Part shown: positions 10,089-40,887 of the stretch, piece by piece
How positions within the stretch are numbered: position 1 is the first letter of the stretch
Layout: the number at the start of each line of letters is the position of its first letter
Assembly (NCBI GenBank): GCA_021228405.1
Contig: JAJQRF010000006.1
Span: forward strand, 186,001-250,000
Length of the DNA stretch: 64,000 bases
Source of the DNA: Pyrinomonadaceae bacterium
GTDB taxonomy: Bacteria > Acidobacteriota > Blastocatellia > Pyrinomonadales > Pyrinomonadaceae
Reading direction: 5' to 3'
Position numbers and translations under genes: made by a program
The notes under the pieces: generated by a model
The model's database searches: none
Seen by the model: only the letters and a program-made list of their open reading frames with translations
What the model was told of the DNA's origin: nothing

Positions 10089-10141
10089 AAGCGTTTCCCT
10101 TTCTGAATCCGGGATTTTCATTCGTTCAGATCGCTGTAAAA

Positions 10142-19965: not shown

Positions 19966-20796
19966 CTATCGGGAATATTCGAGCAAAGCATCAGGCGAAA
20001 CAGGGACGATCGGCGTAAAATTACGGCTCGCGATAAATTCGGGGCGCGGGTCTTCTCTTTCTTCCAATTTGTTTTCCATACTGTTATAACTGATAAAAAT
20101 GCTCTGCCGGTCAACACAACTCAGATTTTGCGACGAGGCGTGAAACAAATTTCCGTGAAAGAACAAAACCAAACCCGCATTCCCTTTGACTGAAAGGATT
20201 TGCGATTTTTTAAGTAATTCTGAAAGAATCGCCTGATTGATCTTGTATTTCAAATCCGAAGTGAGCGTCGACATCCAAAGCGGGTCTTTGGTTTGCCCGT
20301 TTTGCGCGTATTTCATATGTGCTTCGACATCGATCATTCCTTCATTGTGCGAGCCAGGAATAATGAGCATCGGACCGTTGAAATCATCGACATTGTCGAG
20401 AAAAACGGCGGCGGTCAAAACTCTCGGCGCGGGCATCGAATCTTCCTTGTTCCAGTAAAGAAAATCCTGATGCCATTCCCACTGTTCGCCTTCGAGTGCG
20501 ACCTTGAAGTTGATCTTGAATTGATGCACGTAAACGTCGCTTTGCAAAAGTGCCTTTGCCGTTTCGACGATCTGCGGCAGACGAATCAAACGCTTCATAA
20601 TTTCGGAATTCTGATGCGCCGCAAAGATCGTGCGCACGGCTCCGCTTTTTTCGGGAATGATCTTTTCCGACTTTTCATTTGAAAGCCGACTGATCTCTTC
20701 GGTCAGCACTTTTATCTCTTCATTTGAAATCAAATCGGGATAAATCAAATACCCGTTTTTTTCATAAAAATCGATCTGTCCTTTGGGTATAAACAT
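19966..20796 (-). CDS. Phytanoyl-CoA dioxygenase (EctD-like) family Fe(II)/2-oxoglutarate hydroxylase
   Basis: 276 aa. The iron-binding HxD is in WEWHQDFLYW, the distal His in FFHGNLFHASS, and the 2OG-binding Arg is probably in the CVDRQSIFISY region. The stretch from FKINFKVAL to LIIPGSHNEG resembles ectoine hydroxylase and related amino acid hydroxylases. It sits between two NRPS genes with gaps of 30 and 37 bp, so it is part of the assembly line's tailoring set. The likely role is hydroxylation of a free or carrier-bound amino acid. The A2 domain of the gene just upstream has a Pro-like code, making Pro or a cyclic analogue one candidate substrate, but Lys/Arg-type or aliphatic residues are equally possible. 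AGGAAC lies upstream of the ATG. Confidence 0.85.
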   Translation of the reverse strand: MFIPKGQIDFYEKNGYLIYPDLISNEEIKVLTEEISRLSNEKSEKIIPEKSGAVRTIFAAHQNSEIMKRLIRLPQIVETAKALLQSDVYVHQFKINFKVALEGEQWEWHQDFLYWNKEDSMPAPRVLTAAVFLDNVDDFNGPMLIIPGSHNEGMIDVEAHMKYAQNGQTKDPLWMSTLTSDLKYKINQAILSELLKKSQILSVKGNAGLVLFFHGNLFHASSQNLSCVDRQSIFISYNSMENKLEEREDPRPEFIASRNFTPIVPVSPDALLEYSR

Positions 20797-23800: not shown

Positions 23801-26800
23801 TCTTCGCGCAGATTTTCGGGCAATTGCTCAAGGATTTCGGTATTGAACCCGACCGTTTGAGGTTCGTTGACCTTGATAAATCCCAAACCGTTTATTTTCG
23901 GAAAGATCGTGCGATAGGTTTCGTGTCTGGCGATCAGCTTTGTCAAAGCCCGCTCAAGTGCCGGAATGTTCAAATTTCCCTTAAATCTGATCGGACGCAA
24001 AACGTTGTAAGCGTATTTTTCAGGATGGAGAAGCTGTAAAAACCACAATCTTTCCTGCGCAAACGAAAGCCTCACGAGTTCTTCGTGCTCGAGCCGTTTG
24101 ATCGGCGGCAATTCCGTTTTCGTGTCAACGTTTACGAAATTTTCGATCTGTTTTGCCAAACCCGCCAGCGTCGGAGCCTCAAATAAGGAGCGTAATGGCA
24201 ACTCCGTCCCGAATTTGTGGCGGACGTGAGAAATTACGCGGGTTCCTAAAAGCGAATGTCCGCCGAGATCGAAGAAATTATCGTTCCTTCCGATTTGTCC
24301 GGTTTGCAGAATTTCACTCCAAATCTCCGCCAATCTGATTTCCGTTTCCGTCGCGGGAAGTTCGACGCTGCGATTTTCGATTATCTCGTTGTGCTCCGAT
24401 CTTTGGAGAGTTTTTTTATCGATCTTACCGTTTCCGGTAAGCGGCATCCGTTCAAGTTTGACAAACGCCGAAGGAATCATAAAATCGGGCAAAGTTTTCC
24501 TTAAAAATTCTCTCAGTTCGGCGTTTTCAACCGGATTATTTTCGTTTTCGGTGTAAAAGGCGACCAGCCGGTTAAAACCTTCGTGCTCTTTGCTGATGAC
24601 GGCGGCTGACTTTACGCATTTATTTGCCAGAAGTGCATTTTCGATCTCGCCGGGTTCGACGCGAAAACCTCTGATCTTTACCTGATCGTCGGTTCTGCCG
24701 CGGTATTCGAGCGAACCGTCCGCCAGAAACCTCGCGGCATCCCCGGTTTTATAAAGTCTTTCGCCCGGAATATTTGAAAACGGATTCGGCACGAATTTTT
24801 CCGCCGTCAATCGCGCATCGTGGATATAACCGATTGCCAAACCCTTTCCGCCGATATAAAGTTCGCCCGTGACCCCGATCGGAACGCGGTTAAGATTTTC
24901 ATCGAGAACAAAAGACTGGGAATTGGAAACAGGTTTTCCGAGCGAAATCTCTTTTGTTTCAGAAATCGCATTCTGACATTCGACTTCGCCGGCAACCGTC
25001 ACCACGGTGGTTTCGGTCGGTCCGTATGAATTGACCAGTCTGATTTTTTCCGTCCCGAGTTCGCGCCAACGGTTTACATTTTTGACCGAAACCTTTTCGC
25101 CGCCGATGATTACTAATCTGACCGAATCGGGAAAGCTATTGTTTCCCTTATTTCTCGTTGAAACAAGTTCGTTCCAGTAAGCCGTCGGCAAATCCAGAAC
25201 CGTGATTTTTTCCTTTTCGCAGTTTCGGAAAAAAGTTTCGACCGTCGAGATCATTTCCTCATTTCTCAAAACGAGTAACGCTCCGGCGGCAAATGTCGGG
25301 AAAATTTCCTCAAGGCTGGCATCGAAACTGTATGAAGCAAATTGCAGAACGCGGTCAGTTGATTGGAATTGATAAAAATCACGTGCAAAATTTACGAAAT
25401 TTACGATCGCATTGTGCTGGACAACCACGCCTTTCGGTTTTCCGGTCGAGCCCGAAGTATAGATGACATAGGCGGGAAGTTCCGTCGACAAGTTTGTTTC
25501 GACAAATTCATCGGAAAAGTTTGCAATTTCAACAGATTCGGCTTCAAGATCGATGAGTTCGATGTTTTGATTCGACAAATTTGTTTCCGAATTTGTCAGT
25601 AAAACGCCGATCTGCGAATTTTCGATAATAAAATCGATTCTTTCAGACGGAGAATTCGGTTCAATCGGAACATAAGCCGCGCCGAGTTTTAAGACGGCAA
25701 GAATCGAAATTATTCTTTCCAACGAACGGCTGACCGACAGCCCGACGAAATCGCCTGTTCTTATTCCCTTTTCCGACAGATAATTTGCCAGCCGGTTAGC
25801 GCGTTTTTCGAGTTCGAGATAGGTTAACTCTTTTTCTTCAAATTTTACGGCTGGCGCATCCGGCGTTTCTACTGCTTTTACGGTAACGAATCGGTGTAAG
25901 CAGAGATCGGTCGCCGCCGTCTGTTTTGAACCTTGAAAGGCTTCGATACTTTGCTTTTCCGCATCGGCTAAAAAGTCGATCTCACCGAGTTTTTGCTGCG
26001 GATTTATTGCAATTTGTTCAAGCAGGTTCACATAATGTCCGGCTAAACGGGCAATCGTTTTTTCATCGAAAAGAGCCGTCGCGTATTCGATCCAGCCCTC
26101 GATCTTTTCGTTCTTTTCCGCGATGTCGAAAGTCAGATCGAATTTGGATGTTTGCGTATCGATCTCGACTTCTTCAATTTTCGCCGCGCCGAGTTTCAGG
26201 TCAACGGCGGGCGTATTTTGCAGTATGAACAAAACCTGAAAGAGCGGATTGCGGCTCGCATTTCTTTCGACTTCCAACGTATCCAACAGTATTTCGACCG
26301 GAACGGCTTGGTTTTCAAAGGCTTCGAGCGAAATCTTACGCACCTGAGCGAGAAATTCCGAAAAATTAATCTTTCCGTTCGGTTTCGATCTCAATACAAG
26401 TGTGTTCAGGAAAAATCCGATCAAATTTTCGGTTTCGGCGATCGTTCTGCCCGCAATCGAAGCCCCGATGCAAATATCTTCCTGGTTCGTGTAGCGGTAA
26501 AAGAGCGATTTCAATCCCGCCAACAGGATCATAAACAAAGTCGCATTTTCATTTTTCGCCAACAATTTCAGCTTTTCGGTGAGTTCCGGCGAGATGGATA
26601 ACGGGAAACGTTTTCCGTCCGTATTTTGAATTGCAGGACGGTGATTATCCGTCGGAAGATTTAAAGCGGGCAAATGTCCGCCCAGTTGTTTTTTCCAATA
26701 TGCGGTTTCCTGCGCAAGATTTTCGGCGGTTATATTTTCTTTTTCCCAGACGGCGAAATCGGCGTATTGAATCGGAAGTTCGGAAAGCCGGGGCGAACGG

Positions 26801-27369
26801 TGTTCGAGATAAGACTTGTATAGTTCGGTAAGTTCCCTTACCAAAACGCTCATCGACCAACCGTCGGCGGCAATGTGGTGAATCGTCACGGCGCACAGAT
26901 ACGATTCTTCGCTTAGTTTGATTACCGAAACCCGAATTAACGGCGATTCCGTCAGATTAAAAATCTTTCGGGCATTGCTCAAGGCGATCTCCAAAGCTTT
27001 GCTTTCCGTGTTTTCATCCGCGGATAAATCGATCGTTTCGATTCCGAAATCGAATTCTTCATTGATAAGCTGAACAGGTTTGCCGTTTAACGAATGATAG
27101 GAAGTGCGTAAAATTTCGTGACGTTCGATTATCTGCCGAAAGCTCTGCTCAAAAATTTCAATATCGAGAAATCCTTTGATCTTGAGTGCGACCGAAATAT
27201 TATAAGAAGGATCGTCCGGCTCAAATTGCGACAAAAACCAAAGTCTTTCCTGCGATGTCGAAAGGGGAAAGATATTGAAATCTTCTCCGCCCCCGGAAAA
27301 GATTTTTTTCTCCAGTAAACCCTGTTCTTCAGGTGACAATTGCTCTAATTTTTCAAATATCTTACTCAT
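20827..27369 (-). CDS. Nonribosomal peptide synthetase, C-A-T-C-A-T (basic and Pro-like modules)
   Basis: About 2180 aa from the ATG at 27369 (MSKIFEKL), which has AGAGG upstream; an upstream TTG at 27399 is open but unlikely. C1 has IHHIAADGWS near 165. A1 has FDASLEE and NSYGPTE, T1 GGHSLLGT near 1037, C2 EHHLVHDGWTEG near 1235, A2 FDVSFQD and NEYGPSE, and T2 GGHSLLAMQ near 2105. A1 specificity residues read DAEDIGSVV; Glu239 and Asp278 give an acidic pocket and the code resembles the bacitracin Lys code, so Lys, Orn or Arg is likely. A2 reads DVQFIGEVV, close to the Pro family DVQxIAHVV but with Ala to Gly and His to Glu, so it may accept a Pro-like or modified residue. No epimerase domain is present. 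The PhyH-like hydroxylase follows 30 bp later. Confidence 0.94.
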   Translation of the reverse strand: MSKIFEKLEQLSPEEQGLLEKKIFSGGGEDFNIFPLSTSQERLWFLSQFEPDDPSYNISVALKIKGFLDIEIFEQSFRQIIERHEILRTSYHSLNGKPVQLINEEFDFGIETIDLSADENTESKALEIALSNARKIFNLTESPLIRVSVIKLSEESYLCAVTIHHIAADGWSMSVLVRELTELYKSYLEHRSPRLSELPIQYADFAVWEKENITAENLAQETAYWKKQLGGHLPALNLPTDNHRPAIQNTDGKRFPLSISPELTEKLKLLAKNENATLFMILLAGLKSLFYRYTNQEDICIGASIAGRTIAETENLIGFFLNTLVLRSKPNGKINFSEFLAQVRKISLEAFENQAVPVEILLDTLEVERNASRNPLFQVLFILQNTPAVDLKLGAAKIEEVEIDTQTSKFDLTFDIAEKNEKIEGWIEYATALFDEKTIARLAGHYVNLLEQIAINPQQKLGEIDFLADAEKQSIEAFQGSKQTAATDLCLHRFVTVKAVETPDAPAVKFEEKELTYLELEKRANRLANYLSEKGIRTGDFVGLSVSRSLERIISILAVLKLGAAYVPIEPNSPSERIDFIIENSQIGVLLTNSETNLSNQNIELIDLEAESVEIANFSDEFVETNLSTELPAYVIYTSGSTGKPKGVVVQHNAIVNFVNFARDFYQFQSTDRVLQFASYSFDASLEEIFPTFAAGALLVLRNEEMISTVETFFRNCEKEKITVLDLPTAYWNELVSTRNKGNNSFPDSVRLVIIGGEKVSVKNVNRWRELGTEKIRLVNSYGPTETTVVTVAGEVECQNAISETKEISLGKPVSNSQSFVLDENLNRVPIGVTGELYIGGKGLAIGYIHDARLTAEKFVPNPFSNIPGERLYKTGDAARFLADGSLEYRGRTDDQVKIRGFRVEPGEIENALLANKCVKSAAVISKEHEGFNRLVAFYTENENNPVENAELREFLRKTLPDFMIPSAFVKLERMPLTGNGKIDKKTLQRSEHNEIIENRSVELPATETEIRLAEIWSEILQTGQIGRNDNFFDLGGHSLLGTRVISHVRHKFGTELPLRSLFEAPTLAGLAKQIENFVNVDTKTELPPIKRLEHEELVRLSFAQERLWFLQLLHPEKYAYNVLRPIRFKGNLNIPALERALTKLIARHETYRTIFPKINGLGFIKVNEPQTVGFNTEILEQLPENLREEKMREIIHKEGQTHFNVVDGPLWRLRFLKMSEADHLLLFSEHHLVHDGWTEGVLVTEFLHLYQSEAANRPEELKPLPISYRDFAVWQRNCFENGLFDHQIEYWKEKLSGKLPELALPTDMPRSSVETFKGDTYTRILPFETLQKLREFARENDVTLYMILLAAFSILLHRYSRQDEILIATSVAGRNKFELESLIGFFVNTLPMRNDLAGDPTFDEYLQRTKKLCFEAFANQDVPFEKIVEIIQPDRTLSKQSLFQVMMVLHNAESPDLILPGLEVQSMRVHNETSKFDLLFHLREEPGGLRLAMEYSTELFREDTIDRMLEHFENLLLSALENKRENISKLKLIGEAERTKLLSDWNQTEIEYPSNELLASRFEKQVDLSPDSVAVRFREELLTYRELDERANQIAGKLSELGIKPEIRVGICLKRSLDMICTVLAVVKCGGVYVPLDSTYPNERLTYILEDSQVKILVTEESLLSSLPEKLPTLFVLDREKEEISTRPKQRLKVRGDIFNLVYITYTSGSTGKPKGIGMTQHSLLNLLDWMLANTQLPEKAVTLQFASLSFDVSFQDIFSTLLSGGSLVLITEDERQDIKGLAKIIAREGVHRLFIPAVALQQLAEGFCNLGAEQTAISKIIAGSEQLQITPKIAQMFSQNPQAHLHNEYGPSEAHVVTELEMQGKPDEWVKRPSVGKPISNTKIYILDQHFEPTPTCVPGELYIGGYGVARAYLTQPALTSEKFIPDPFSKKHGARMYRTGDMARFLADGNIEFLGRADFQLKIRGFRIEPGEIEIVLSQSPFVSEAVVTAFEFSEFDKRLIAYVVPKNGATPEPAQIREFLKEKLPDYMIPSSFIVLDKIPLNTNGKVDRKNLPLPDKTAAFSGREYVAPETELEKFVSAVWMDVTGLEKIGTDDNFFDIGGHSLLAMQVVSQLSDSLETEIPLRLIFEFPTIRQLCGELQTFDSNGGDLETIARYLNQINELSDDEAEAMLNSLSA

Positions 27370-27408
27370 TAAAACATCAACCTCTTCAACTCTTAACAAA
27401 AAACTTAA

Positions 27409-30400
27409 TTAATTCTGACGATCATTTTCCGTTTTATTTTGAACGGTTTCGTCAAGTTCTTTCAGCAATGTTTTGATATTTTTCCGACTGCGTCCGAGCG
27501 GCTTGATGGGATGGTTGCGCGTGATGATCCTCGGCAGATTTTCATTTTCCGAGATTTCTTTTGCCAATGCTCTGATCGTCGGAATCTCAAAAACCCTGAC
27601 GATTGAAATGTCACAGGAAAAATCTCTTTTGATCGCCGCCGCCAACCTGGTTGCTAGGAGTGAATGACCGCCGAGTTCAAAAAAATCGTCGTCCAACCCG
27701 ATCTCATTTTTCGCCAGAAGGTTTTTCCAGATTTCCGCCAGACGGATTTCCGTTTTCGTTTGCGGAAGATTAATTTCCCGGTGATTTTGTCCGGCTTCGT
27801 TCAAAACGAGTTGTTTTTTGTCTATCTTTCCATTTGTCGTCAATGGAAACTCATTCACAAAACCGATTCTTTTAGGAATCATAAAAGCCGGCAATTTGCC
27901 CGTTAAATAGTTTCTAATCCCGGAAATTTCAACTTGCGATTCTTTTTCGGCAATGATGAACGCCGCGAGCGTTTTGTCGCCGAAAGCATTTTTATCGACC
28001 GTGATGACGGCTCTTTTCACCGAATCGTGCAGGTTCAACACGGCTTCGATCTCGCCGGGTTCGATCCGATAACCGTTGATCTTCACCTGTTCGTCTTTCC
28101 TGCCGATAAATTCGATGAATCCATCCGACGAAATTCTTGCCAGATCGCCCGTTCGATACAATCTCGAACCCGTTTTGCCGCTAAACGGATCGGGAATAAA
28201 TGTTTGGGCAGTAAGTTTCGGCTTGTTCAAATACCCGTTCGACACGCCTGCGCCGCCCGTCACCAATTCCCCGATAACGCCGCGCGGAACGAGTTGCAGG
28301 TTTTCATCGACAATGTAAACTTCAGACTGATTAATGCTTTTGCCGATTGGCAAACTGCGCCGGTTATATGGAGTTTCGGTCGGAAAACAGGCGGTGAATG
28401 TCGTGTTTTCGGTCGGACCGTAACCGTTTATGAAAGTCGAACTGCCATTCGTTTTATTGAGAAAGCGGTTGACGTGCGACGTGGATAAAACATCGCCGCC
28501 AGCCAACAGTTGCTTGACCAGAGCTAAATCATCGAGATTTTCATCAACCATCAAATGAAACAATCCCGCCGTAAGCCAGAGCGTCGTGATCTGATATTTT
28601 TTCAGGGCATTGCCGACCGCTTCGGCATTTGTAAACCCGTCGGGCATCAGGGCTAAACTTGCGCCGTTCAGCAAAGCTCCCCAGATTTCAAATGTCGAAG
28701 CATCGAAAGAGATCGGCGCAAGCTGTAAAATCACCTGATTTTTGTCTAATTTCGCGTAGTTTTGACTCTTAACCAGCCGAAGAATGTTTCGATGAGTTAC
28801 GCAAACGCCCTTCGGTTCGCCTGTCGAACCCGAAGTATACATAATATATGCCGTCGTTTGCGGTTTGATGTGCGGCTCTCCGATATTGGGCAAAATACGG
28901 TGGTTTTCAGCCAGCAGATTTTCGACCTCAACGACTTCAACCTCATTCGCGTAGGCAAATCCGTTGTCGAATTCTTTCGAGGTCAAAACTATTTTTGCGG
29001 CGGTATCTCTTAAAATGTAATTTACTCTTTCGACCGGGAAAGACGGCTCAAGCGGGACATACCCCAGCCCGGCTTTCAATATTCCGAGTATCGAAACGAT
29101 CAATTCAGGCGTGCGGCTCATTCTGACCGCAACGTTACCGCCGTCGCCGGTGTTTGAATTATTGAGAAAGTCGGCAATCAGGTTCGATCTTTCATCCAGT
29201 TCCCTGTAGCTTAAACGTTCATCATCCCAAACGAGTGCGTCTTTATCCGGATAATTCCTAACTATTTTTGAAAAGACTTCCGGGATGCTGATTTCCATTG
29301 AAGTCTTCATTTGTCTGCAATTTACGAGAGATTTCAGTTCGTTTACGTCCGTTTCCGAAAGCAAAGGAAAATCAGCAATCGAAGAGTTTAGATTTTCAGG
29401 CAATGATTCGACAATTATGAGAAATCTTTTTTCCAATTCTTCCGCTGTTTTTTCTCCGAAAATCTCGGTGCTGTATTCGAGATGCCCTTCAAGCCCGCGA
29501 TCCGTTTCCCGCAGGTCGAAAGTCAGATCGAATTTCGACGTTCCGGTGTCGATTTCGATAAATTCGCACTCAATTTCCGGCAGATTCAATTCGGTCTGAA
29601 AGTTGTTTTGAAACGCCAGTGCGACCTGAAAGACCGGGTTTCGATTTATCTGACGCGGCAACGGCAGATTTTCAACCAGCAGATCAAACGGAAGTTCCTG
29701 ATTCGTAAAAGCTTCGATCGTATTTTCTTTAACCTTTTGTATCAAAGCTTCGACCGTTTCCCGGTTTTCAAGCGTTGCCCTGATAACCAGAGAATTTGCA
29801 AAGAAACCGATTATTTTTTCAGTGTCAGGATGAAATCGATTTGCGACCGGAACCCCGATGCAAACATCCGTTTCTTCGCTAAATCGCCTGAGCAGGATAT
29901 TTACGGCGGCAAGCAAAAGCATAAAAAGCGTATAACCTTTGCTTTGCCCGAGTTTTTTTAATTCCCTGACAGTTTGCGCATCGATATTGATCGGAATCTT
30001 TGCGCCTTTGTAAGCCGGTTTCGCCGGACGCTCAAAATCGGTCGGAAGCTCAATATTTCCCTTTATTCCGTCTAGTTTTTTTTGCCAGTATTGCAACTGC
30101 CTCGAAAGTTTTCCGTTTGCAATGCCTTCGATCTGCCATTCGGCGTAATCAGAATATTGCAATTCTTTTTGCGAAGGCGTTTCTTTATGGGAAATAGTTT
30201 TGTCTAATTGCTTTTCGTATTCCTTTTTCAGTTCCCTGATAAGAATTCCCAAAGACCAACCGTCCGTGATGATATGGTGCATCACGACCAGCAAAACATA
30301 TTCATCATCGGCGGTTTGCCACAATCGGATTCGGTATAAATTCTCACTGCGCAGATCGAACCCTTCTCTTGCTTCGGCGACCAGATGAAACCCTAAATCC

Positions 30401-33400
30401 GCTGACGAATTCCGAAAGTCTTCGTAATGCCAATCGATCTTTCTTGATTTATCTGTGATTTGAAACGGTTCGCCATCGATACTGAGAATTCCGCTTTGCA
30501 GGATTTCGTGGCGTGCGTGAATGACTTCAAACGCATTTCTCAATGCTTCGATGTCCGGTTTTCCTTTCAAACTCAATGCCGCCGGAACATTGTAAACCGA
30601 TGAGCGCGGGTTTATCTGATCGATAAACCATAATTTACGTTGCGACGGAGATAATTTGAACGGTCTTTTTTCCGGTATTTTACCGATTCGGTCAAACTCC
30701 GTTTTTTCGCCCGAGGCAAGCATATCGGCGATCAATTTCGACAACGCGGCGGGTGTCGGTTTTTCAAAAACGGCGCGTAAAGGAATTTCGATCTGAAAAA
30801 TTTGTTTGAGTCTGATGATTAACTGTGCCGCCAGGAGCGAGTGACCGCCTGAATAGAAAAAGTTCGTATCGACCCCGATTTTTCTGATACCGAGCGTTTC
30901 CTTCATCTGTCCGGCAACAACTTCCTCAAGTGAAGTTCGCGGCGCGGTAAATTCATTGACGGATTCGCTTTCCGTTTCGGTCGGTTCGGGCAATTTTTTG
31001 CGGTCAATCTTGCCGTTCGGCGTAAGCGGCAAGGAAGCTAGAAAAATGAATTCCGCCGGAATCATATATTCGGGCAGGTTTTCCCGGAGATACGTTATCA
31101 ATTCGATCTTCGCTATCTTTTTATGCGGCTCGGAAACCAGGTGGCAGACGATCAATTTTTCATTGTTCTTATTTGTATGAGCGATAACGACATTTTCCTT
31201 GATTGCGGGATGCTGTCCTATCCGCGATTCGATCTCGCCGAGTTCGATGCGAAAACCGCGAATCTTAACCTGATGGTCGGTTCTACCCAAAAATATCAGA
31301 TCACCGTTTTCGGTAAATCTTGCCAGATCGCTCGTTTTATACAATCGACCGCCGAACTTTCCGCTCAGATCGTCGGGCACGAATCTTTCAGAAGTTTGAA
31401 GCGGCTTGTTGAAATAACCGCGTGTCACACCATCTCCGCCGAGATAAATTTCTCCGGTTACGCCGATCGGGACGGGCAGCATTTTTTCGTTCAGCAGATA
31501 AACCTGCGAATTTGTGAGCGGCTTTCCGATCAAGGAATTTACGCCTTTTCCGCCGGGCATCAGCGCAAAGGTCGAATAAGTCGTATCTTCCGAAGGTCCG
31601 TATAAATTGAAAACCCGCTTGACCTGTTCGTTTTTGTAAACTTTTTCAACGAGATGATTCAATAACGGTTCGCCTGCCAGATTGACCGTTTGAACTTTTC
31701 CGGGCAATTTGTTGTTGCGGCACAATTCGGTCATTGCCGAAGGAACCGTATTTATCAAAGTAATATCCGAAAAATCGTCCGCTGACAGCAACGAAAGTGC
31801 ATTTTCCGCCAGACAAACCTCGCCGCCGCACGCCAGAGTGCTGAAAATTTCAAAAACCGACAAGTCGAAACAAATCGAAGTCGATGCCAGAACCTTCCCG
31901 AGTTCTTCTTCGGAAAACGTATTTTTTGCCCAGTTTATCAAAGCGCAAACGCTCCGATGTTCGATTGCGACTCCTTTCGGAGTTCCCGTCGAACCCGACG
32001 TGTAGATGATATATGCCAGGTTTTTCGGATCGAAAATGATCGGTCTGATGTCCGAACTCATTTGATCCAGCTCGCTCTTAATCACATCGAAATCGATAAC
32101 CTTTTCGGCATCGAACGGCAGGATCGAAAGAAGCTCGTTTTCCGTCACGACGAATGCGGATTCCGAATCTTCAAGCATCAATTTCAGCCGATTCTGCGGA
32201 TAGTTCGGGTCCATCGGAACATAAGCCGCGCCCGCTTTGAGAATTCCCATCAAAACAACGATCAGTCTTTCGGAACGATTCAGACAAACTGCAATGCGGT
32301 CGCCGTTTTCAACGCCGCGCAGTTTCAAATAATTTGCAAAACGATTCGATTGCTCATTTAAATATTTGTAAGTCAGAAAATTTCGCTGAAATGAAACGGC
32401 GATCTTATCGGGAGTTTGTGCGGCTTGGTTTTCAAACAGCCCGTGAATCGAAGCTTTTTGATCGTAATCCTGCGCCGTGTTGTTCCACTCGAAAACGATT
32501 TTCTTATATTCGTCGTCAGCAACTATTTCGAGTTCGGAGATTGCTCGAAGCGGATTTTCGACAATACTTTTGAGGAGTTTGTTGAAATTTTCGCCCATCC
32601 TTTCAACCGTTTGCGGACTTAGCAGATTTTTGTTGTATTGAAAGGCGGCGGACAGCTTTTCACCGTTTTCAGCGATCATCAAAGTAAGATCGAACTGTGA
32701 AAATGTCTGCTCGATCTCTTCCGATTCGAGTTTCAATTCGCCTAAATCCAGTTTCACCGCAGAATCGCCCTGCGCCCACGCCGCCAAACCCGGTAAATCC
32801 TTGATCGGCGACTGCTGTAAAATAAACATCGTCTGAAAGATCGGCGAACGTGAAGCGTCCTGATCCTGTAAATTGTCCTCGACAACCTTTATGAAAGGAT
32901 ATTTTTGATTTTTCGAGATTTCCTTGAATGTTTTCCTGACATTTTCAAGATACTTTTCAAAACTCGCTTCACCGTCTGCAAAACTTCGCACGGCAACCGG
33001 GTTGACCAAATATCCGAGCGTGTTTTTGTACGCCGGATTTTCTCTGCCCGAGGTCGGAGTTCCGACGATCAGATCGGATTGGTTTGTGTAGCGGTAAAGA
33101 AATATTTTGTAAGCCGTAAGCAATGATACGAATAAGGTTGTGCGCTGTTTGACGCTCAAATCCTTCAATTTTTTAACGGTCGCCTGATCGAGTTCAAAAC
33201 GCAAAGTTTTCCCTTCAAAGGTCTGAATCGACGGTCTTTGAAAATCGAACGGAAAATCGAGATGCGGAAGTTCGCCGCTTAGTTGATTACGCCAGAAAGA
33301 TTTATTTGCTTCGCTTTCGCTCGTCGAGAGATATTTTTCTTCAACAATGACAAATTCCCGGAATCGGCTCGCTTCCGTTTTTTCGTTTCCGATTGAAACA

Positions 33401-35919
33401 CCGGTCAACGAATAAAGCTCGCCGAGTCTTTTGATAATCAAACTCAACGACCAGAAATCGGCAATTATGTGATGAAGCGAGAGCGAAAATAACGTTTCAC
33501 TTTCGCCGATCCGCCAAATTCCTAACCGCAAAAGCGGTTCGTTGACGAGATCGAAAGGTCTTTGAAATTCTTCATTTATCAGTCTTTTTACTTCTTCCGT
33601 TGAATTTTCGGGATACGTATTTTCGCTCCATTCAAAATTCGGCGATTGATTTATTTTCCTGACCGGCTGACCGTTCTTCACCTCAAACGTCGAGCGCAGA
33701 ATGTCGTTTTCAACACAAATCTTTTCAAAGGCTTCTTTCAATTTCGACGGCTCGAAATTTTCATTCGTAATCTTTGCCAGAAAATTGAGATTGTAAGCAG
33801 TATTTTCAGGAGCCAATTGCTGAAGAAACCACAACGCCTTTTGTCCGCGTGAAAGCTCGGTTTCAGGCACGTCTATGTCAATTCTTTGTTCGCTGATTTG
33901 TTCTTTCGCAGGCTTTAACTCCCATAAAAATCGGCACAAAGTTTCAAAACTGTCCTCTTCGATCAGATCGGAAACCGAAAAGTCGATCTTAAATTGCTTC
34001 TTGATCGTATGCGCCAATTCGAGAGCCGTCAATGAATCGAGCCCGTAACTGAGAAGCGAAATGTTTTCCTTTATGTTTTGAGGATGAATCTTTAACGCTT
34101 CCGACACCGATCTTTTCAGCTTCGACCTGAAAACTTCAAACTCGTCCGCGGCAGATTCAAGCGAATCATCGTTTTCGATGAGATCGGTTTGAAAATTATC
34201 TTCGGCGGCAAATTTATCCGCGATTTCCAGTTTATCGGTCAAAAATTCGTTTCGACAAGTTTTGCGCCGTTTCTTACCGCTCGATGTCTTCGGTAAAGTG
34301 CCGGCTTTAATCAAAACGATCTGCCCGGCACTTATCTCGTATTCGTTTGCTAAAATTTTCTGAATTTCCGCAAATACCTGTTCGGAAACGTAAGCCGAAC
34401 GCGGTTCGATTTCCTGAACGATGATGAGTTTTTCACCCTTTTCGGCTTCCGCGGCAAACGCGATACAGCCGTCTTTTCTTAATGCCGGATGACAGTTTTC
34501 AATTGATTTTTCGATGTCCTGCGGATACAGGTTGCGACCGTTCAAAATTATCAGGTCTTTGATTCGTCCCGTGATGAACAGATTGGAATTTTTGATAAAA
34601 CCCAAATCTCCCGTTCGCAGAAACGTTTCGCCGTCTTCATTATGCAGACGGGCTTGAAAAGTCTTTGCCGTTTCATCAGGGTTGTTCCAATAACCGTTTG
34701 CGACGCTCGAACCCGATAACCAGATTTCACCGATCTCGTGCTCGTTCGATCTGATGCAGGTTTCGGGATTGACTATTTCAACTGTGATTCCTTCGGCAAT
34801 TTCACCGCAATTGACCAGTAATTTCGCGTTTTCGTCTTTTGCTTCGCTGACGATGTGTTTTTCCAGCAGTCCTGCGTCGAATTTTTGAATAAAATTTTGT
34901 TCGGAATCCGTTGCCGACACAAGGAGCGTGGCTTCCGCCAGACCGTAGCAGGGAAAGAACGAACTTTTACGGAATCCCGTTTTCTCGAAGGTCTTTGCAA
35001 ATCTTTCGAGAGTTGCGGCTGAAATCGGTTCGGCACCGTTAAAAGCCACCTTCCAGCAATTCAGATCGAGCCTTAAAATCTCTTCTTCTTTAACACGTTT
35101 CAGGCAAAGTTCGTAAGCAAAATTCGGTCCGCCGCTGGTCGTTGCGCGGTAGGTGGAAATCGCTTTCAGCCAGGAAACCGGATTTTGCACGAATTCTGCC
35201 GGAGTCATCAAAAAACATTCGGCATTGACGAATAGCGGCTGTAAAACGTTACCGATCAATCCCATATCGTGATACAAAGGAAGCCAGCCGAGAATCACGG
35301 AATCTTCCGACTGTTTAAATAAATCGCGTATCATCTGCTGGTTTACGAGCAGATTTTCGTGTGAAACGATCACGCCTTTCGGCTCGGACGTGGAGCCGGA
35401 AGTATATTGAAGAAAAGCGGTCGATGCGGCGGAGATCGAAGTTTGAATCAATTCTCCGGCGTTTTCGTCTATCGAATCCGTGTTTATTAATTTGAGCCGG
35501 AGTAAGTTATCGTTTCCGGCAGTCGCTCGTTTTATCCTGTTTTCGACCGTCGTATTTATTAAAGCGGCAGAGGCTTGCGAATCGGCAACGATCGTTTCGA
35601 TTCTGCCGAAATTTCGGTTATTGCGCGGCGGATACGCGGGAACGGCGATCATTCCCGCCAAAAGACAGCCGAAAAAAGCGGTGATATAACTCAAATTTTG
35701 CGGATAAAGCAGTAAAATGCGGTCGCCGATCTGACAATTTTGCTGTAATTGTCCCGCGATGGTCTTCGACTTTTCCAGCAATTCGCCGTAGGTCAGAGTT
35801 TCCACGATCTCATTATCCGTTAATAAATTGTAGATCGTTTTTTCGGGATTCTGTGCAGCCCGAAATTCGAGAATATCTATCAACGTTTTCCAATTATTTT
35901 GCGATTGGAGCAGTTTCAT
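27409..35919 (-). CDS. Starter synthetase, FAAL-ACP-C-A-T-C-A-T
   Basis: 2836 aa. Residues 1 to about 590 are a fatty acyl-AMP ligase (YTSGSTSEPKGV, LPLYHDMGLIG, GGPNFAYELC), which activates a fatty acid as the acyl-adenylate and loads the following ACP (YGLDSLTA, Ser near 623). C1 would join the acyl chain to the first amino acid; its active motif reads HHIIADFWS, with Phe in place of the usual Gly. A1 reads DLFNNALTY, an Ala-type code. T1 has GGHSLLAAQ near 1694, C2 HHIITDGWS near 1881. A2 reads DAFWLGGTF, a Val code identical to that of A1 in the 13392-19928 gene. T2 has GGHSLLATR near 2753. This is the first synthetase of the operon, so the product should be a lipopeptide with an acyl-Ala-Val start. 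Confidence 0.95.
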   Translation of the reverse strand: MKLLQSQNNWKTLIDILEFRAAQNPEKTIYNLLTDNEIVETLTYGELLEKSKTIAGQLQQNCQIGDRILLLYPQNLSYITAFFGCLLAGMIAVPAYPPRNNRNFGRIETIVADSQASAALINTTVENRIKRATAGNDNLLRLKLINTDSIDENAGELIQTSISAASTAFLQYTSGSTSEPKGVIVSHENLLVNQQMIRDLFKQSEDSVILGWLPLYHDMGLIGNVLQPLFVNAECFLMTPAEFVQNPVSWLKAISTYRATTSGGPNFAYELCLKRVKEEEILRLDLNCWKVAFNGAEPISAATLERFAKTFEKTGFRKSSFFPCYGLAEATLLVSATDSEQNFIQKFDAGLLEKHIVSEAKDENAKLLVNCGEIAEGITVEIVNPETCIRSNEHEIGEIWLSGSSVANGYWNNPDETAKTFQARLHNEDGETFLRTGDLGFIKNSNLFITGRIKDLIILNGRNLYPQDIEKSIENCHPALRKDGCIAFAAEAEKGEKLIIVQEIEPRSAYVSEQVFAEIQKILANEYEISAGQIVLIKAGTLPKTSSGKKRRKTCRNEFLTDKLEIADKFAAEDNFQTDLIENDDSLESAADEFEVFRSKLKRSVSEALKIHPQNIKENISLLSYGLDSLTALELAHTIKKQFKIDFSVSDLIEEDSFETLCRFLWELKPAKEQISEQRIDIDVPETELSRGQKALWFLQQLAPENTAYNLNFLAKITNENFEPSKLKEAFEKICVENDILRSTFEVKNGQPVRKINQSPNFEWSENTYPENSTEEVKRLINEEFQRPFDLVNEPLLRLGIWRIGESETLFSLSLHHIIADFWSLSLIIKRLGELYSLTGVSIGNEKTEASRFREFVIVEEKYLSTSESEANKSFWRNQLSGELPHLDFPFDFQRPSIQTFEGKTLRFELDQATVKKLKDLSVKQRTTLFVSLLTAYKIFLYRYTNQSDLIVGTPTSGRENPAYKNTLGYLVNPVAVRSFADGEASFEKYLENVRKTFKEISKNQKYPFIKVVEDNLQDQDASRSPIFQTMFILQQSPIKDLPGLAAWAQGDSAVKLDLGELKLESEEIEQTFSQFDLTLMIAENGEKLSAAFQYNKNLLSPQTVERMGENFNKLLKSIVENPLRAISELEIVADDEYKKIVFEWNNTAQDYDQKASIHGLFENQAAQTPDKIAVSFQRNFLTYKYLNEQSNRFANYLKLRGVENGDRIAVCLNRSERLIVVLMGILKAGAAYVPMDPNYPQNRLKLMLEDSESAFVVTENELLSILPFDAEKVIDFDVIKSELDQMSSDIRPIIFDPKNLAYIIYTSGSTGTPKGVAIEHRSVCALINWAKNTFSEEELGKVLASTSICFDLSVFEIFSTLACGGEVCLAENALSLLSADDFSDITLINTVPSAMTELCRNNKLPGKVQTVNLAGEPLLNHLVEKVYKNEQVKRVFNLYGPSEDTTYSTFALMPGGKGVNSLIGKPLTNSQVYLLNEKMLPVPIGVTGEIYLGGDGVTRGYFNKPLQTSERFVPDDLSGKFGGRLYKTSDLARFTENGDLIFLGRTDHQVKIRGFRIELGEIESRIGQHPAIKENVVIAHTNKNNEKLIVCHLVSEPHKKIAKIELITYLRENLPEYMIPAEFIFLASLPLTPNGKIDRKKLPEPTETESESVNEFTAPRTSLEEVVAGQMKETLGIRKIGVDTNFFYSGGHSLLAAQLIIRLKQIFQIEIPLRAVFEKPTPAALSKLIADMLASGEKTEFDRIGKIPEKRPFKLSPSQRKLWFIDQINPRSSVYNVPAALSLKGKPDIEALRNAFEVIHARHEILQSGILSIDGEPFQITDKSRKIDWHYEDFRNSSADLGFHLVAEAREGFDLRSENLYRIRLWQTADDEYVLLVVMHHIITDGWSLGILIRELKKEYEKQLDKTISHKETPSQKELQYSDYAEWQIEGIANGKLSRQLQYWQKKLDGIKGNIELPTDFERPAKPAYKGAKIPINIDAQTVRELKKLGQSKGYTLFMLLLAAVNILLRRFSEETDVCIGVPVANRFHPDTEKIIGFFANSLVIRATLENRETVEALIQKVKENTIEAFTNQELPFDLLVENLPLPRQINRNPVFQVALAFQNNFQTELNLPEIECEFIEIDTGTSKFDLTFDLRETDRGLEGHLEYSTEIFGEKTAEELEKRFLIIVESLPENLNSSIADFPLLSETDVNELKSLVNCRQMKTSMEISIPEVFSKIVRNYPDKDALVWDDERLSYRELDERSNLIADFLNNSNTGDGGNVAVRMSRTPELIVSILGILKAGLGYVPLEPSFPVERVNYILRDTAAKIVLTSKEFDNGFAYANEVEVVEVENLLAENHRILPNIGEPHIKPQTTAYIMYTSGSTGEPKGVCVTHRNILRLVKSQNYAKLDKNQVILQLAPISFDASTFEIWGALLNGASLALMPDGFTNAEAVGNALKKYQITTLWLTAGLFHLMVDENLDDLALVKQLLAGGDVLSTSHVNRFLNKTNGSSTFINGYGPTENTTFTACFPTETPYNRRSLPIGKSINQSEVYIVDENLQLVPRGVIGELVTGGAGVSNGYLNKPKLTAQTFIPDPFSGKTGSRLYRTGDLARISSDGFIEFIGRKDEQVKINGYRIEPGEIEAVLNLHDSVKRAVITVDKNAFGDKTLAAFIIAEKESQVEISGIRNYLTGKLPAFMIPKRIGFVNEFPLTTNGKIDKKQLVLNEAGQNHREINLPQTKTEIRLAEIWKNLLAKNEIGLDDDFFELGGHSLLATRLAAAIKRDFSCDISIVRVFEIPTIRALAKEISENENLPRIITRNHPIKPLGRSRKNIKTLLKELDETVQNKTENDRQN

Positions 35920-35939: not shown

Positions 35940-38252
35940 TTAAAAAACAAATAATTTCGTCACAAAGGTCGAATCATTGAACGGCATCGGCGCGGCGACT
36001 AAATCGGCGGGACGATTGTTAATGCTGATCTCGGACGATTGCGGCAATCCGTAATCCTGCGTAATAACTCTTATTTTCAGGTTTTCCTTTGGTTTAACGG
36101 ACAAAACTATCTCCGAGCCTTTCGCCGGAATCGCATACAATCGCGTCATCCACGGATTTTTTTGTTTTCCGGCGACGGCTGTATCCTGAAACAGTTTTTT
36201 TCCGTCCAGTTCAAACCCGACAACTTCGTTTTCGGATTCGACCGCCAGAGTTATCACGGGAGATTTCGTCGGCGAAGTTAATTTCAACCTTAAATTACGG
36301 ACATCGGAAACCGTTTCATCACTGATCTTTTCGAGCGACGGAGCGGGCAGTTCGGTTTGCTCCGCCGATTCCTTGACCAGAAAATACCGCTGACTTTGCG
36401 GGAAAAATTGCGGCAGTAAAGCGTCGGAGGCGTTGCCATCAAAAAGTTGTTTGTTCCATTCATTGAGATTAATGTCTTCGGTCGCCCAATACGATTTTTT
36501 ATTGTCCGCATCGTAAGCGCGCAAAAGACTCGTTTGGCGCGGCTTTTCCGCCGTATAATTGACACTCGCCAAACCTGAAACGATCAAAACGACCCCGATG
36601 ACCGAAAGCAAACCACCGCCGATCAAACTCAATTTGCGGTCAAAGCTCGCCAGCGCGGGAATTAAAAGTCCGATCAATAATGCCGCGAAAAACACCGCTA
36701 CAGGAATTAATCCGAAACCTAATCCCGCGATCAGGTGCCTTAAAATTCCGCCGACCAGAATTATTCCCCCGAAGCTTCCGATCAAAGAAAAAACCGAAAA
36801 TCTGTTTTTCGACACGTCTTTGTCGACCCACAGCATCCCGATGAAACCCGCGATTAAAATAATTATGACGGTTAAAGTGAAAATATAACTCGTTCCCGGC
36901 AGTAAGAGGCTCGTTAAAATGCTGATAAGAAGCCAGAGTAAAAGGCTTCCGAACAACAGATTCTCGTAATTTATCTTTGTTCGCAATAAACCGAAAAACG
37001 CAACCGCGAGGGCTAATACCAAAAGCATCACGCCGAAGATATAAAAGCCTGAATCGTAAACATCACCTGTCGAAAAGGCGGAATAATCGCGGTGAAAAAC
37101 GGTAATTATCTTGACCAGTAAGAATGAAAAGATCAATTCCGCAATGATGAACAACAGAAAAAGGAAAAATCCGCCGACGAATCCTTTGACATTCAAACCC
37201 GTCGTTTTGTTCGCGTAATAAAACGCGCCGACGAACAATAAAACCGCAACGATCATTAACGGCAAAACGATGCCTTTCGGATATGACAGCAGTTTCATCC
37301 CGAAAACGTCGAAATAGATCACTTCTCCGCCGGATGCTTCATCGAAATTTTTGTTTCGCAATTCCCGCACGACCGCGAGCAGATTTTCGCCCTGATGAGC
37401 GACACTATTGCGGTCGAGATTTTTAGGATTATCGGCTTGGGTGTGATAATTGTTCACATTTTCAATAAATGCCGTGTTCAAACCGTCGATTCCCTTTAAT
37501 TTGAACTCCGTGAAATCGGTATCATTCGGAAGAATTTTGTAAATATCGTTGAAAAAAGAACTCGCGATCGGTCTGGCAACCGATCTGCCGTATGACCTTA
37601 TCAATTCGGCGTTGTTCTCCGAAGTTTCAAACAATAAAGCCGCGCCGCCCGTTCCGCGCGCTTCGAGGTTGATAACGGTCTTTATTTTTGCAAGATTCGG
37701 GTTTTCATTCAGAAAGGCTTTCGCGCCTAACATTCCTTTTTCTTCGGCATCGGTAAACAAAACCATTATGTCGTTTCTTGCAGAAGACTCGCTTTTCAAA
37801 ATTCTCAGGGTTTCCAGGATCGAACCGACGGCGGCGGCATCGTCGGCGGCTCCTGCACCCGTCGAAACCGAATCGTAATGTGCCGAAATGAGAATGATCT
37901 CACCGTTACCGTTTCCCTTCAGCGTTCCGCTGATGTTCGTCACATAGCCCGCCTGAAAAGGCATTCCGAATCTCGTATTTTCCGCAATAACGGTTTGCGT
38001 TTCAGGATCGATCCCGAGAGAGCCAAGATTTTCCCTGATGTATTCCTGATTCTTGAGATGGTTTTCGCTTCCGACCGGATGCGGCGCGTTTGCGATCTTT
38101 TCGACGTGCCGCAACGCATTTTCAACGGAAAACTGACCTGCTTCGCTACTCACGGTCGCCGTCGGCGCACCTTCCAAACGCATCAGGATCAGAATTAAAA
38201 CTATTGCCGAAACGATTGCGATAATACCGACAAGCCGATTTTTGTTATCCAT
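35940..38252 (-). CDS. Membrane-anchored M28 family metallopeptidase
   Basis: 770 aa. One N-terminal membrane segment (about 9-24) leads to a M28 di-zinc peptidase domain with His125 and Asp127 in SAHYDS, Asp in GAADDAA near 138, Glu170/171 in DAEEKG, Glu197 in NLEARG, and His in NYHTQADN near 268. About eight membrane segments follow (330-600) and then a C-terminal extracytoplasmic domain. The layout resembles FXNA/ER-metallopeptidase-like proteins. It lies between the antiterminator and the FAAL synthetase, 21 bp before the latter, so it belongs to the cluster. It may trim or activate the exported lipopeptide, as the unrelated S12 peptidase ClbP does for colibactin, or confer self-resistance by hydrolysis. 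A general housekeeping role cannot be excluded. No D-amino-acid-generating domain is seen, so a ClbP-type D-Asn leader is not supported. Confidence 0.9.
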   Translation of the reverse strand: MDNKNRLVGIIAIVSAIVLILILMRLEGAPTATVSSEAGQFSVENALRHVEKIANAPHPVGSENHLKNQEYIRENLGSLGIDPETQTVIAENTRFGMPFQAGYVTNISGTLKGNGNGEIILISAHYDSVSTGAGAADDAAAVGSILETLRILKSESSARNDIMVLFTDAEEKGMLGAKAFLNENPNLAKIKTVINLEARGTGGAALLFETSENNAELIRSYGRSVARPIASSFFNDIYKILPNDTDFTEFKLKGIDGLNTAFIENVNNYHTQADNPKNLDRNSVAHQGENLLAVVRELRNKNFDEASGGEVIYFDVFGMKLLSYPKGIVLPLMIVAVLLFVGAFYYANKTTGLNVKGFVGGFFLFLLFIIAELIFSFLLVKIITVFHRDYSAFSTGDVYDSGFYIFGVMLLVLALAVAFFGLLRTKINYENLLFGSLLLWLLISILTSLLLPGTSYIFTLTVIIILIAGFIGMLWVDKDVSKNRFSVFSLIGSFGGIILVGGILRHLIAGLGFGLIPVAVFFAALLIGLLIPALASFDRKLSLIGGGLLSVIGVVLIVSGLASVNYTAEKPRQTSLLRAYDADNKKSYWATEDINLNEWNKQLFDGNASDALLPQFFPQSQRYFLVKESAEQTELPAPSLEKISDETVSDVRNLRLKLTSPTKSPVITLAVESENEVVGFELDGKKLFQDTAVAGKQKNPWMTRLYAIPAKGSEIVLSVKPKENLKIRVITQDYGLPQSSEISINNRPADLVAAPMPFNDSTFVTKLFVF

Positions 38253-38328: not shown

Positions 38329-38847
38329 TCAAACTTTTCTGATCTTTTCTTTCTCGACGATCAGATTTAGCTGATACGTAACCGTTGAAAGCAGAACCAT
38401 AACGCGGGTCGAATCCGAAACGCCGTTGACGAACACGCCGATAAAATCCTTCAAATAAGGCTGATCGACGATTACCCGGTCACCGGGTTTTAAGCTGATT
38501 TCGGGATCGATAATGTTCTCTTTGCCGGTCAGTTTCAGCATTATTTCGATGATCGTATCTTCAACAACGCAGGGGTGTTCGCCGCAACTCACAATGCTGT
38601 GGAGTCCCCTTGTGAATTTGACTTTATTTAAACAAGTGTTTGAATTGAATCTGGCGAAAATATAACAGGGAAAGAGCACCTTTTTATAACTGATCTTCTT
38701 TCCTGTCTGTCTATTCAGTTTGTATGATCTGATCCGCGGAACAAAGGTTTCGATTCCGCCGGCACGAAGATTCGCCGAAACTCTTTCTTCCTGATTGGGT
38801 TTTGTATTGATTGCATACCAATGCAAAGTGTCAAAATCGCTTAACAT
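38329..38847 (-). CDS. RfaH/NusG-type transcription antiterminator
   Basis: 172 aa. The N-terminal NGN domain begins LHWYAINTKPNQEERV. It includes VLFPCYIFARF, corresponding to LFPNYLFVEF of RfaH, and VKFTRGLHSIVSCGEHP, corresponding to the ATRGVSHFVRFGASP region. The KOW part reads PGDRVIVDQPYLKDFIGVF. The length and lack of insertions match specialised NusG paralogues (RfaH, LoaP, UpxY) that load on RNA polymerase at a leader signal and suppress pausing and Rho termination across long operons. It is the first gene of a cluster of at least 38.8 kb, 76 bp before the M28 gene, and its own leader holds an ops-like site and hairpin. This implies self-activation. GAGG lies about 8-11 bases before the ATG at 38847. 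Confidence 0.9.
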   Translation of the reverse strand: MLSDFDTLHWYAINTKPNQEERVSANLRAGGIETFVPRIRSYKLNRQTGKKISYKKVLFPCYIFARFNSNTCLNKVKFTRGLHSIVSCGEHPCVVEDTIIEIMLKLTGKENIIDPEISLKPGDRVIVDQPYLKDFIGVFVNGVSDSTRVMVLLSTVTYQLNLIVEKEKIRKV

Positions 38848-38930
38848 AGGAGAACCTCAAATTAAAGCTGAAATCCGGGAAAGAAATATTCAGCCTATCG
38901 AAGCAGAAGCGAAATCTCCGACCAATGGCA

Positions 38931-38941
38931 AAGCTACCGCA
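38931..38941 (-). promoter_or_regulatory. ops-like recruitment element for the RfaH-type protein
   Basis: On the minus strand the leader reads TGCGGTAGCTT. The E. coli ops element recognised by RfaH has the core GGCGGTAGnnT, so eight of the nine fixed bases match and the GCGGTAG core is intact. It lies 84 bases upstream of the start codon of the RfaH-like gene, directly after a stable hairpin. This is seen in sequence; function is inferred. Confidence 0.65.
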
Positions 38942-38970
38942 TTACCTGTTAACTATCGCTAGTTAGGTAG
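38942..38970 (-). promoter_or_regulatory. Leader hairpin with GNRA tetraloop beside the ops-like site
   Basis: On the minus strand, TAACTA and TAGTTA (6 bp) enclose GCGA, a GNRA loop. The stem continues below a 3-base ACA bulge through TACC paired with GGTA. Competing pairings exist: CTACC of this hairpin can instead pair with GGTAG of the ops-like site (38934-38938), and TCTCC (38976-38980) can pair with GGAGA (38915-38919) or be absorbed in the small hairpin TTAGG-TCT-CCTAA (38973-38985). The alternatives look like a pause or attenuation structure. Confidence 0.55.

Positions 38971-40467: not shown

Positions 40468-40887
<420 letters not shown>

Follow-up and report, generated by a model that had tools for sequence, protein, structure and literature searches.

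The rfaH-like gene and its leader

The window analysed here is a stretch of 64,000 nucleotides of contig JAJQRF010000006.1 from a Pyrinomonadaceae bacterium. It contains a gene for an RfaH-like NusG paralogue, here called P0001 (172 amino acids, 38329..38847, minus strand), which is supported as a real open reading frame (ORF) and by family searches and a tree. P0001 is the first gene of an operon encoding nonribosomal peptide synthetases (NRPS) and polyketide synthases (PKS). Same-strand ORFs no more than 168 bp apart extend from P0001 to a thioesterase gene at C5:162372, which gives an operon of approximately 62.5 kb (start codons not checked), longer than the at least 38.8 kb of the original prediction.

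The leader of P0001 carries an ops-like signal on the coding strand, as had been proposed: TGCGGTAGCTT at 38941-38931, its first base 94 nt 5' of the P0001 ATG. The conserved element extends 4 bases past this 11-mer, to 38927. The whole ops-like element, defined from the sequence, genome counts and relatives, is TGCGGTAGCTTTGCC (38927..38941, minus strand), with the Pyrinomonadaceae consensus TGCGGTAGCTNTRYC. Within it GCGGTAGC (38933..38940, minus strand) is identical to the E. coli ops-hairpin stretch G2-C9 as given in PMC11001881. Folding predicts a nascent-RNA hairpin, TACCT-AACTA-GCGA-TAGTT-(AAC bulge)-AGGTA, at 38943..38969 (minus strand), which ends 1 nt before ops and occupies most of the 28 bases (38969-38942) preceding the 11-mer. 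The extent first proposed, 38329..38941, takes in the 11-mer and the gene but misses this hairpin.

The 11-mer motif by itself proves nothing, since the window holds 20 matches to GGCGGTAGNNT allowing at most one mismatch (shuffle mean 6.9) and the sole perfect match among them lies elsewhere, at 40698-40708 (minus strand). In the source genome (G000, 5.72 Mb, 20 contigs, 96.5% complete) the perfect GGCGGTAGNNT has 18 copies. Longer strings are scarcer. The exact TGCGGTAGCTTTG has three copies: in the P0001 leader, in the leader of mbtH near a second rfaH gene, and antisense within an unrelated ORF. The string TGCGGTAGCTNTR has four: in the P0001 leader, ahead of the mbtH gene close to the paralogue, behind that paralogue itself, and antisense within an unrelated ORF.

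The single promoter-like site of the leader (39138-39111) is upstream of the motif, and such sites are no commoner than chance. Scans for promoters and terminators, covering the leader and part of the operon, gave no excess over chance, and no intrinsic terminator was found at the leader. No Rfam family reached gathering level there, the one weak match being to a snoRNA (E 0.89). The JUMPstart covariance model (RF01707) had no match at E<=10 in the leader and none in a genome scan in which 150 of 565 candidates were scored; E. coli control sites score 55-60 bits with it.

The P0001 protein

P0001 matches the Pfam NusG family with 62.7 bits. Its top NCBIfam model is RfaH (TIGR01955), with 92.8 bits against a curated equivalog cut-off of 144.5. 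The next models are UpxY (NF033644, 71.5 bits, cut-off 100), LoaP (NF033641, 46.2 bits, cut-off 125) and NusG (36.6 bits, likewise under its cut-off). The source genome contains three NusG-like genes, namely the housekeeping NusG (contig C4), P0001 (C5) and a paralogue (C2). In a tree of 54 proteins P0001 and the C2 paralogue fall inside an RfaH-like clade of 20 rows with support 100/99; the clade consists of proteins from genomes taken as Pyrinomonadaceae, one row (L075) being a Blastocatellia metagenome-assembled genome. NusG, represented by the E. coli protein and the source genome's own, splits off at 100/100 (the bootstrap had not settled). The tree upholds the claim that P0001 is separate from housekeeping NusG, and its identity as a housekeeping NusG is ruled out.

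In E. coli RfaH the ops contacts described in PMC5995543 are K10, H20, R23 and R73. P0001 residues K16, R22 and R80 align with K10, R16 and R73 of the E. coli protein. For an AlphaFold (AF2) model of P0001 the closest solved structures are NusG and recruited RfaH, full length, with low TM-scores of approximately 0.5.

RfaH-like NusG paralogues were found in 145 of 396 Acidobacteriota genomes (E<=1e-20). In three loci a Crp-like regulator (cNMP_binding and HTH_Crp_2 domains) is encoded upstream of rfaH on the same strand (L035 7539-8252; L038 11848-12627, minus strand; L040 318-1055).

Conservation of the signal beside RfaH genes

The string TGCGGTAGCTNTR is present on the same strand within 1 kb of 13 of 22 Pyrinomonadaceae RfaH genes, so that conservation in sister clusters, which the original prediction called for, is found. 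Around the same 22 genes there is no opposite-strand copy and no match to the reversed pattern (53.8 kb per strand). Of 33 rows overall, 24 had E<1e-30, and these minus G118 and G107 supplied the 22 genes; one of the genes lacking the signal stops 22 nt short of its contig end. A scan of 21 loci with the 8-mer GCGGTAGC gave 12 matches on the rfaH strand at no more than 1 kb from the gene; 11 read TGCGGTAGCTNTR and the twelfth is L070 +652. Because the scan pattern was only the 8-mer, the search did not dictate T1, T10 and T12 in these sites.

The signal is found only 3' of rfaH in 9 of the 13 loci, 124-404 nt past the matched coding stretch and before the next operon. In G130, as in the window, it is upstream and the next gene found is rfaH. 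On contig C2 of the source genome and in G075 the upstream signal precedes mbtH, then rfaH, and C2 holds a second site behind rfaH. The proposal that the regulator activates its own operon thus fits the arrangement in the window and G130 but is not general. Three of the 17 Pyrinomonadaceae sites (L051, L054 and L041) have no detected rfaH within 1 kb.

The motif could be a chance match or the DNA site of an unrelated regulator. The 20 matches in the window where 6.9 are expected favour this explanation, and so does a search for TGCGGTAGCTBTG in 119 genomes of the family, which gave 49 matches in 35 genomes; 11 of these are within 1 kb of an RfaH gene and 36 lie outside the set taken as real sites. 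Set against these counts, 13 genes have the signal on their own strand and none has it on the opposite strand or reversed, and NRPS genes or mbtH are led in 11 of the 13 loci. As a control, 30 RfaH-like loci, a small fraction of the matches found across the phylum, were read with 1.5-kb flanks; 28 of them are from other acidobacterial families, and the others are G101 (Pyrinomonadaceae) and the window locus. Besides the window's site, GCGGTAG occurs on the gene's strand in 4 loci, all among the 28 of other families; none of these 28 has the Pyrinomonadaceae-type element within those flanks, and L113, from another acidobacterium, has the canonical form. The strand bias rules out a chance motif, and the explanation as a whole is very improbable.

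Two further arrangements were seen near rfaH genes. Paired ops-like copies 42 nt apart are located between rfaH and an operon with M28 peptidase and NRPS genes in L224 (G134:C30, 8259-8313, minus strand) and L071 (10645 and 10687). In L039 (G020:C11), where rfaH has no standard signal, TGCGCTAGCTTTGCC, in which G5 of the element is replaced by C, follows a strong stem 255 nt 3' of rfaH; G020 has four rfaH genes, and an altered specificity is possible.

A variant register of ops

The base table of the 17 Pyrinomonadaceae sites reads T1, GCGGTAGC, T10, N11, T12, R13 and Y14, with C15 in 15 of 17. It was compared with 16 sites from outside the clade, comprising 13 from other RfaH loci (one of them L113) and three from E. 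coli. The outside sites read G1, GCGGTAG, C9 (15/16), a base other than T at position 10, Y11, G12, Y13 (15/16) and C14 (13/16). Matches had been found in 16 of 63 outside loci and 13 sites were retained; L105, L124, L130 and one further L119 match were removed on inspection by eye, a choice in favour of the result. The Pyrinomonadaceae form, with T1 and one additional base after C9, is found in 17 of 17 sites in the clade and in 0 of 16 outside it. The canonical arrangement, G1 with T11-G12 directly after a single variable position 10, is absent from the 17 sites of the clade, all of which have T1 and T12-R13. The G2-C9 stretch GCGGTAGC is also constant in all 17, a constancy partly imposed by the search patterns, which included this stretch.

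In the E. coli complex described in PMC11001881 the polymerase pauses at U11, G2-C9 forms a DNA hairpin, and G5 and T6 meet RfaH. With one extra base after C9, the pause in Pyrinomonadaceae is predicted at U12 and not U11. Judged from these sites, the clade signal is a variant of ops, which keeps the G2-C9 hairpin, has T1 for G1 and a 3' part one base longer, and is usually placed behind a predicted hairpin. The original prediction of an RfaH/ops pair stands in that the pair recurs in related genera, but the signal departs from the ordinary ops of enterobacteria.

The hairpin before the element

Most sites have a predicted hairpin that ends 0-5 nt 5' of T1. Neither the sequence nor the length of the stem is constant, as GTTATGCC/GGCATAAC and CATCGAGC/GCTCGATG illustrate. 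Comparison of the G000 and G075 mbtH leaders shows stem pairing preserved across C-G to T-A and G-T to A-T changes; MAFFT put the hairpins of different sites in differing register. A first test scored unbroken stems (4 bp or more, no farther than 5 nt from the element) against shuffles. At p<=0.05 such a stem is present in 10 of 18 Pyrinomonadaceae sites (here the near-identical L057 and L058 are both counted; L058 is dropped from the bulge-allowing test and the base tables, n=17), in 10 of 13 outside sites and in 4 of 31 motif copies serving as background. These 31 are the 36 non-site matches minus G078, G081, G082, G099 and one of the G107 matches. The energies of the Pyrinomonadaceae sites differ from the background with Mann-Whitney p 0.0004. 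The second copy in L071 has no hairpin by either test.

This layout is not confined to the clade. The E. coli ops sites share it, with YWGG...CCWG ahead of GGCGGTAG, Rfam labels these leaders JUMPstart, and a conserved stem-loop in JUMPstart is reported in PMC2864571; hairpin and ops in this order are therefore already known from gammaproteobacteria. The same layout was also seen next to RfaH genes in Nitrospirota, in other groups of proteobacteria, in the former Deltaproteobacteria and in Acidobacteriota. The E. coli K-12 stems before ops themselves vary pairwise, as TTGG/CCAG, CTGG/CCAG and CAGG/CCTG (L236 29434 and 5149; L237 13194).

The signal might instead be mainly an RNA hairpin, as for LoaP, with the GCGGTAG run working as RNA or merely as a pause. 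Such a signal would agree with hairpins of differing stem sequence ahead of most sites, and with the ability of GGUA to pair with URYC inside the element; according to PMC12691694, LoaP binds a leader hairpin and requires it for antitermination. What is constant, however, is TGCGGTAGCT, in 17 of 17 sites (partly by search design), whereas stem, loop and length of the hairpin vary, and what stays constant is the stretch of the ops DNA hairpin. P0001 gets 46.2 bits from the LoaP model where 125 are needed, and no UNCG is seen among the hairpin loops read. We regard this RNA-based signal as unlikely.

Genes led by the signal

The signal leads NRPS genes or mbtH in 11 of the 13 loci that bear it, window included. 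Seven of these are NRPS by Pfam, one (G078, a near copy of G079) is NRPS by sequence motif only, and three are mbtH. Pfam domains in the led genes include NRPS, carbamoyltransferase, M28 peptidase, TauD-type oxygenase and methyltransferase in L061; NRPS, deiminase-type and M28 in L064; NRPS, M28 and thioesterase in L071; and NRPS, halogenase, ABC and FAD enzymes in L057. NRPS genes are also led in L062, L051 and L215, the last with a CmlA-type enzyme. MbtH is identified by Pfam in the led genes of L072 (third gene) and of C2, and in L059 (G075) mbtH is behind ops. The two exceptions are L060 (G034), where the signal leads a lantibiotic-dehydratase-type gene, and L056 (G130), where rfaH is followed by DAHP synthase on a short contig.

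NRPS adenylation domains often require an MbtH partner. The source genome has one MbtH match, C2:9905, which is led by the hairpin and ops and is on a separate contig from the NRPS operon; at 96.5% completeness another mbtH could be missing. With this sole detected mbtH behind the signal that also leads the NRPS operon, co-regulation of the two in trans is probable. Most simply, one RfaH-type factor or both would control them across contigs, which suggests a small regulon acting in trans in the source genome.

Other signal sites were noted in the course of this comparison. The hairpin-ops site of L025 (G000:C2, 11328-11352), behind the paralogue rfaH, is followed within approximately 80 nt by a terminator-like hairpin (by eye) and convergent ORFs. 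In L203 (G001:C134, approximately 5190, minus strand) hairpin and ops lead ORFs that by eye resemble a PALP-type enzyme and an ABC protein; this contig has no detected rfaH and may hold a trans target.

Proposed mechanism

We consider it likely that P0001 is recruited at the hairpin and ops-like element of its own leader and carries the polymerase through the approximately 62-kb NRPS-PKS operon. As the nascent hairpin emerges the polymerase would pause at ops, probably at U12, and GCGGTAGC on the non-template strand would fold into the ops hairpin. P0001 would read the loop bases G5 and T6 through K16, R22 and R80, the counterparts of E. coli K10, R16 and R73, then displace NusG and suppress pausing and Rho-dependent release along the operon. 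With rfaH the first gene behind the signal in the window, the loop would reinforce itself. Recruitment, pausing and antitermination by P0001 are all predictions from sequence. A wider picture, in which Acidobacteria have a secondary-metabolite regulon of nascent hairpin and re-registered ops (U12 pause), a dedicated RfaH clade, 60-kb NRPS assembly lines and MbtH in trans, is possible, a little short of an even chance.

Several observations weigh against recruitment of P0001 at this signal. The protein scores below the TIGR01955 cut-off and differs at two of the four E. coli ops-contact residues (H20 to N, R23 to A), and the K10 position is variable among its Pyrinomonadaceae relatives. E48, which E. 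coli RfaH requires for autoinhibition, is lost and replaced by K in P0001 (I93, F130 and R138 are retained). The AlphaFold model has a beta-type KOW at moderate confidence; as a test of autoinhibition it did not separate P0001 from the same-alignment control, which was poor. Nine of the 22 RfaH genes have no TGCGGTAGCTNTR inside 1 kb; three of the signal-less loci contain NRPS- or MbtH-type sequence (by regex only), none of it downstream of rfaH on its strand. The site C2:11340 leads no gene.

The hairpin belongs among these points as well. In the window it has -7.3 kcal/mol on 32 nt, with a 3-nt bulge and no unbroken stem, and its shuffle p alone is 0.10. A test that allows bulges is weaker than the first: at p<=0.05 it finds hairpins in 5 of 17 Pyrinomonadaceae, 1 of 13 outside and 5 of 31 background sites, and at p<=0.1 in 12 of 17, 4 of 13 and 8 of 31. 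By this test Pyrinomonadaceae sites differ from background (p 0.008 for energies, 0.0016 for shuffle p); outside sites have 0.054 and 0.117, and the three E. coli JUMPstart controls have shuffle p 0.18-0.32.

Some of the same evidence would suit a P0001 that needs no signal and loads in cis close to its gene, with the ops-like run only a pause or a relic. The loss of E48, the predicted beta KOW, the rfaH gene adjoining its operon and the 9 signal-less genes all agree with this, and PMC13015549 describes monomorphic RfaH proteins, beside mostly lipopolysaccharide-type operons, that are proposed to load in cis. Against it, mbtH on a different contig is led by the signal too, which is also present on two contigs with no detected rfaH (L051, before NRPS genes, and L054), although contig ends limit this detection. 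We think loading in cis improbable, and recruitment at the leader signal remains the preferred reading.

Relation to known systems

The system resembles enterobacterial RfaH/ops (GGCGGTAGnnTG) in having a NusG paralogue, an identical G2-C9 stretch and a long operon behind the signal, and in retaining R16, R73 and, in P0001, K10. It differs in T1 in place of G1, the extra base between C9 and T-G, the mostly NRPS targets in Acidobacteria, the location of rfaH beside its target, and the changes at E48, H20 and R23. With JUMPstart (RF01707), found in gammaproteobacterial polysaccharide leaders, it shares a stem-loop directly 5' of ops, but there is no model match, the stem sequence is not conserved, ops is a variant and the genes are not for polysaccharides. 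LoaP of Bacillota is likewise a NusG paralogue on antibiotic megasynthase operons with a leader hairpin involved; P0001 is far under its cut-off, has no UNCG loop and has an ops core. TaA of Myxococcus xanthus, cited in PMC7593976, is a NusG-like antiterminator within a polyketide antibiotic cluster, and both TaA and LoaP are NusG paralogues that serve polyketide operons (PMC7593976, PMC12691694). PMC7593976, from 2020, mentions secondary-metabolite neighbours of rfaH, calls the recruitment of in-operon factors like TaA unknown, and describes a detailed recruitment mode as known solely for E. coli RfaH at that time.

In the open-licence PMC literature (titles and abstract starts) no work linking RfaH or ops to Acidobacteria or NRPS operons is among the matches listed, and nothing was found on Pyrinomonadaceae and nonribosomal peptides. 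We judge RfaH/ops here to be a new variant in a new setting. With an ops register of its own shared by 17 of 17 sites, the clade offers a testbed for the co-evolution of spacing, pause position and protein, and for a possible role of the JUMPstart hairpin. A further suggestion is that acidobacterial NRPS clusters could stay silent in foreign hosts, where without their RfaH the polymerase may stop short.

Genes of the NRPS-PKS operon

All genes of the operon in the window are on the minus strand. The second gene encodes a peptidase M28 family protein (35940..38252, by Pfam). It is followed by an NRPS with three AMP-binding, two condensation and three carrier domains (27409..35919); the N-terminal AMP-binding unit of this protein has a DIP2-like part and is possibly lipid-loading. 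Domain searches identify further NRPS genes at 20827..27399, 13392..19928 and 2547..8345, and a PKS (KS-AT) at 3..2525 that extends past the window. Between them are genes for an ectoine-hydroxylase-like dioxygenase (19966..20796, by NCBIfam, under the model's cut-off) and, from domain searches, an aromatic amino acid lyase (11638..13224), a free-standing condensation domain protein (10142..11638) and a CmlA-type diiron beta-hydroxylase (8382..10121). Beyond the window, up to the thioesterase, the operon adds further NRPS, PKS and an ABC exporter. An M28 peptidase of 770-790 amino acids recurs near the front of ops-led NRPS operons, in the window (35940-38252), L061 (4678-7026), L064 (3637-6009) and L071 (11103-13415).
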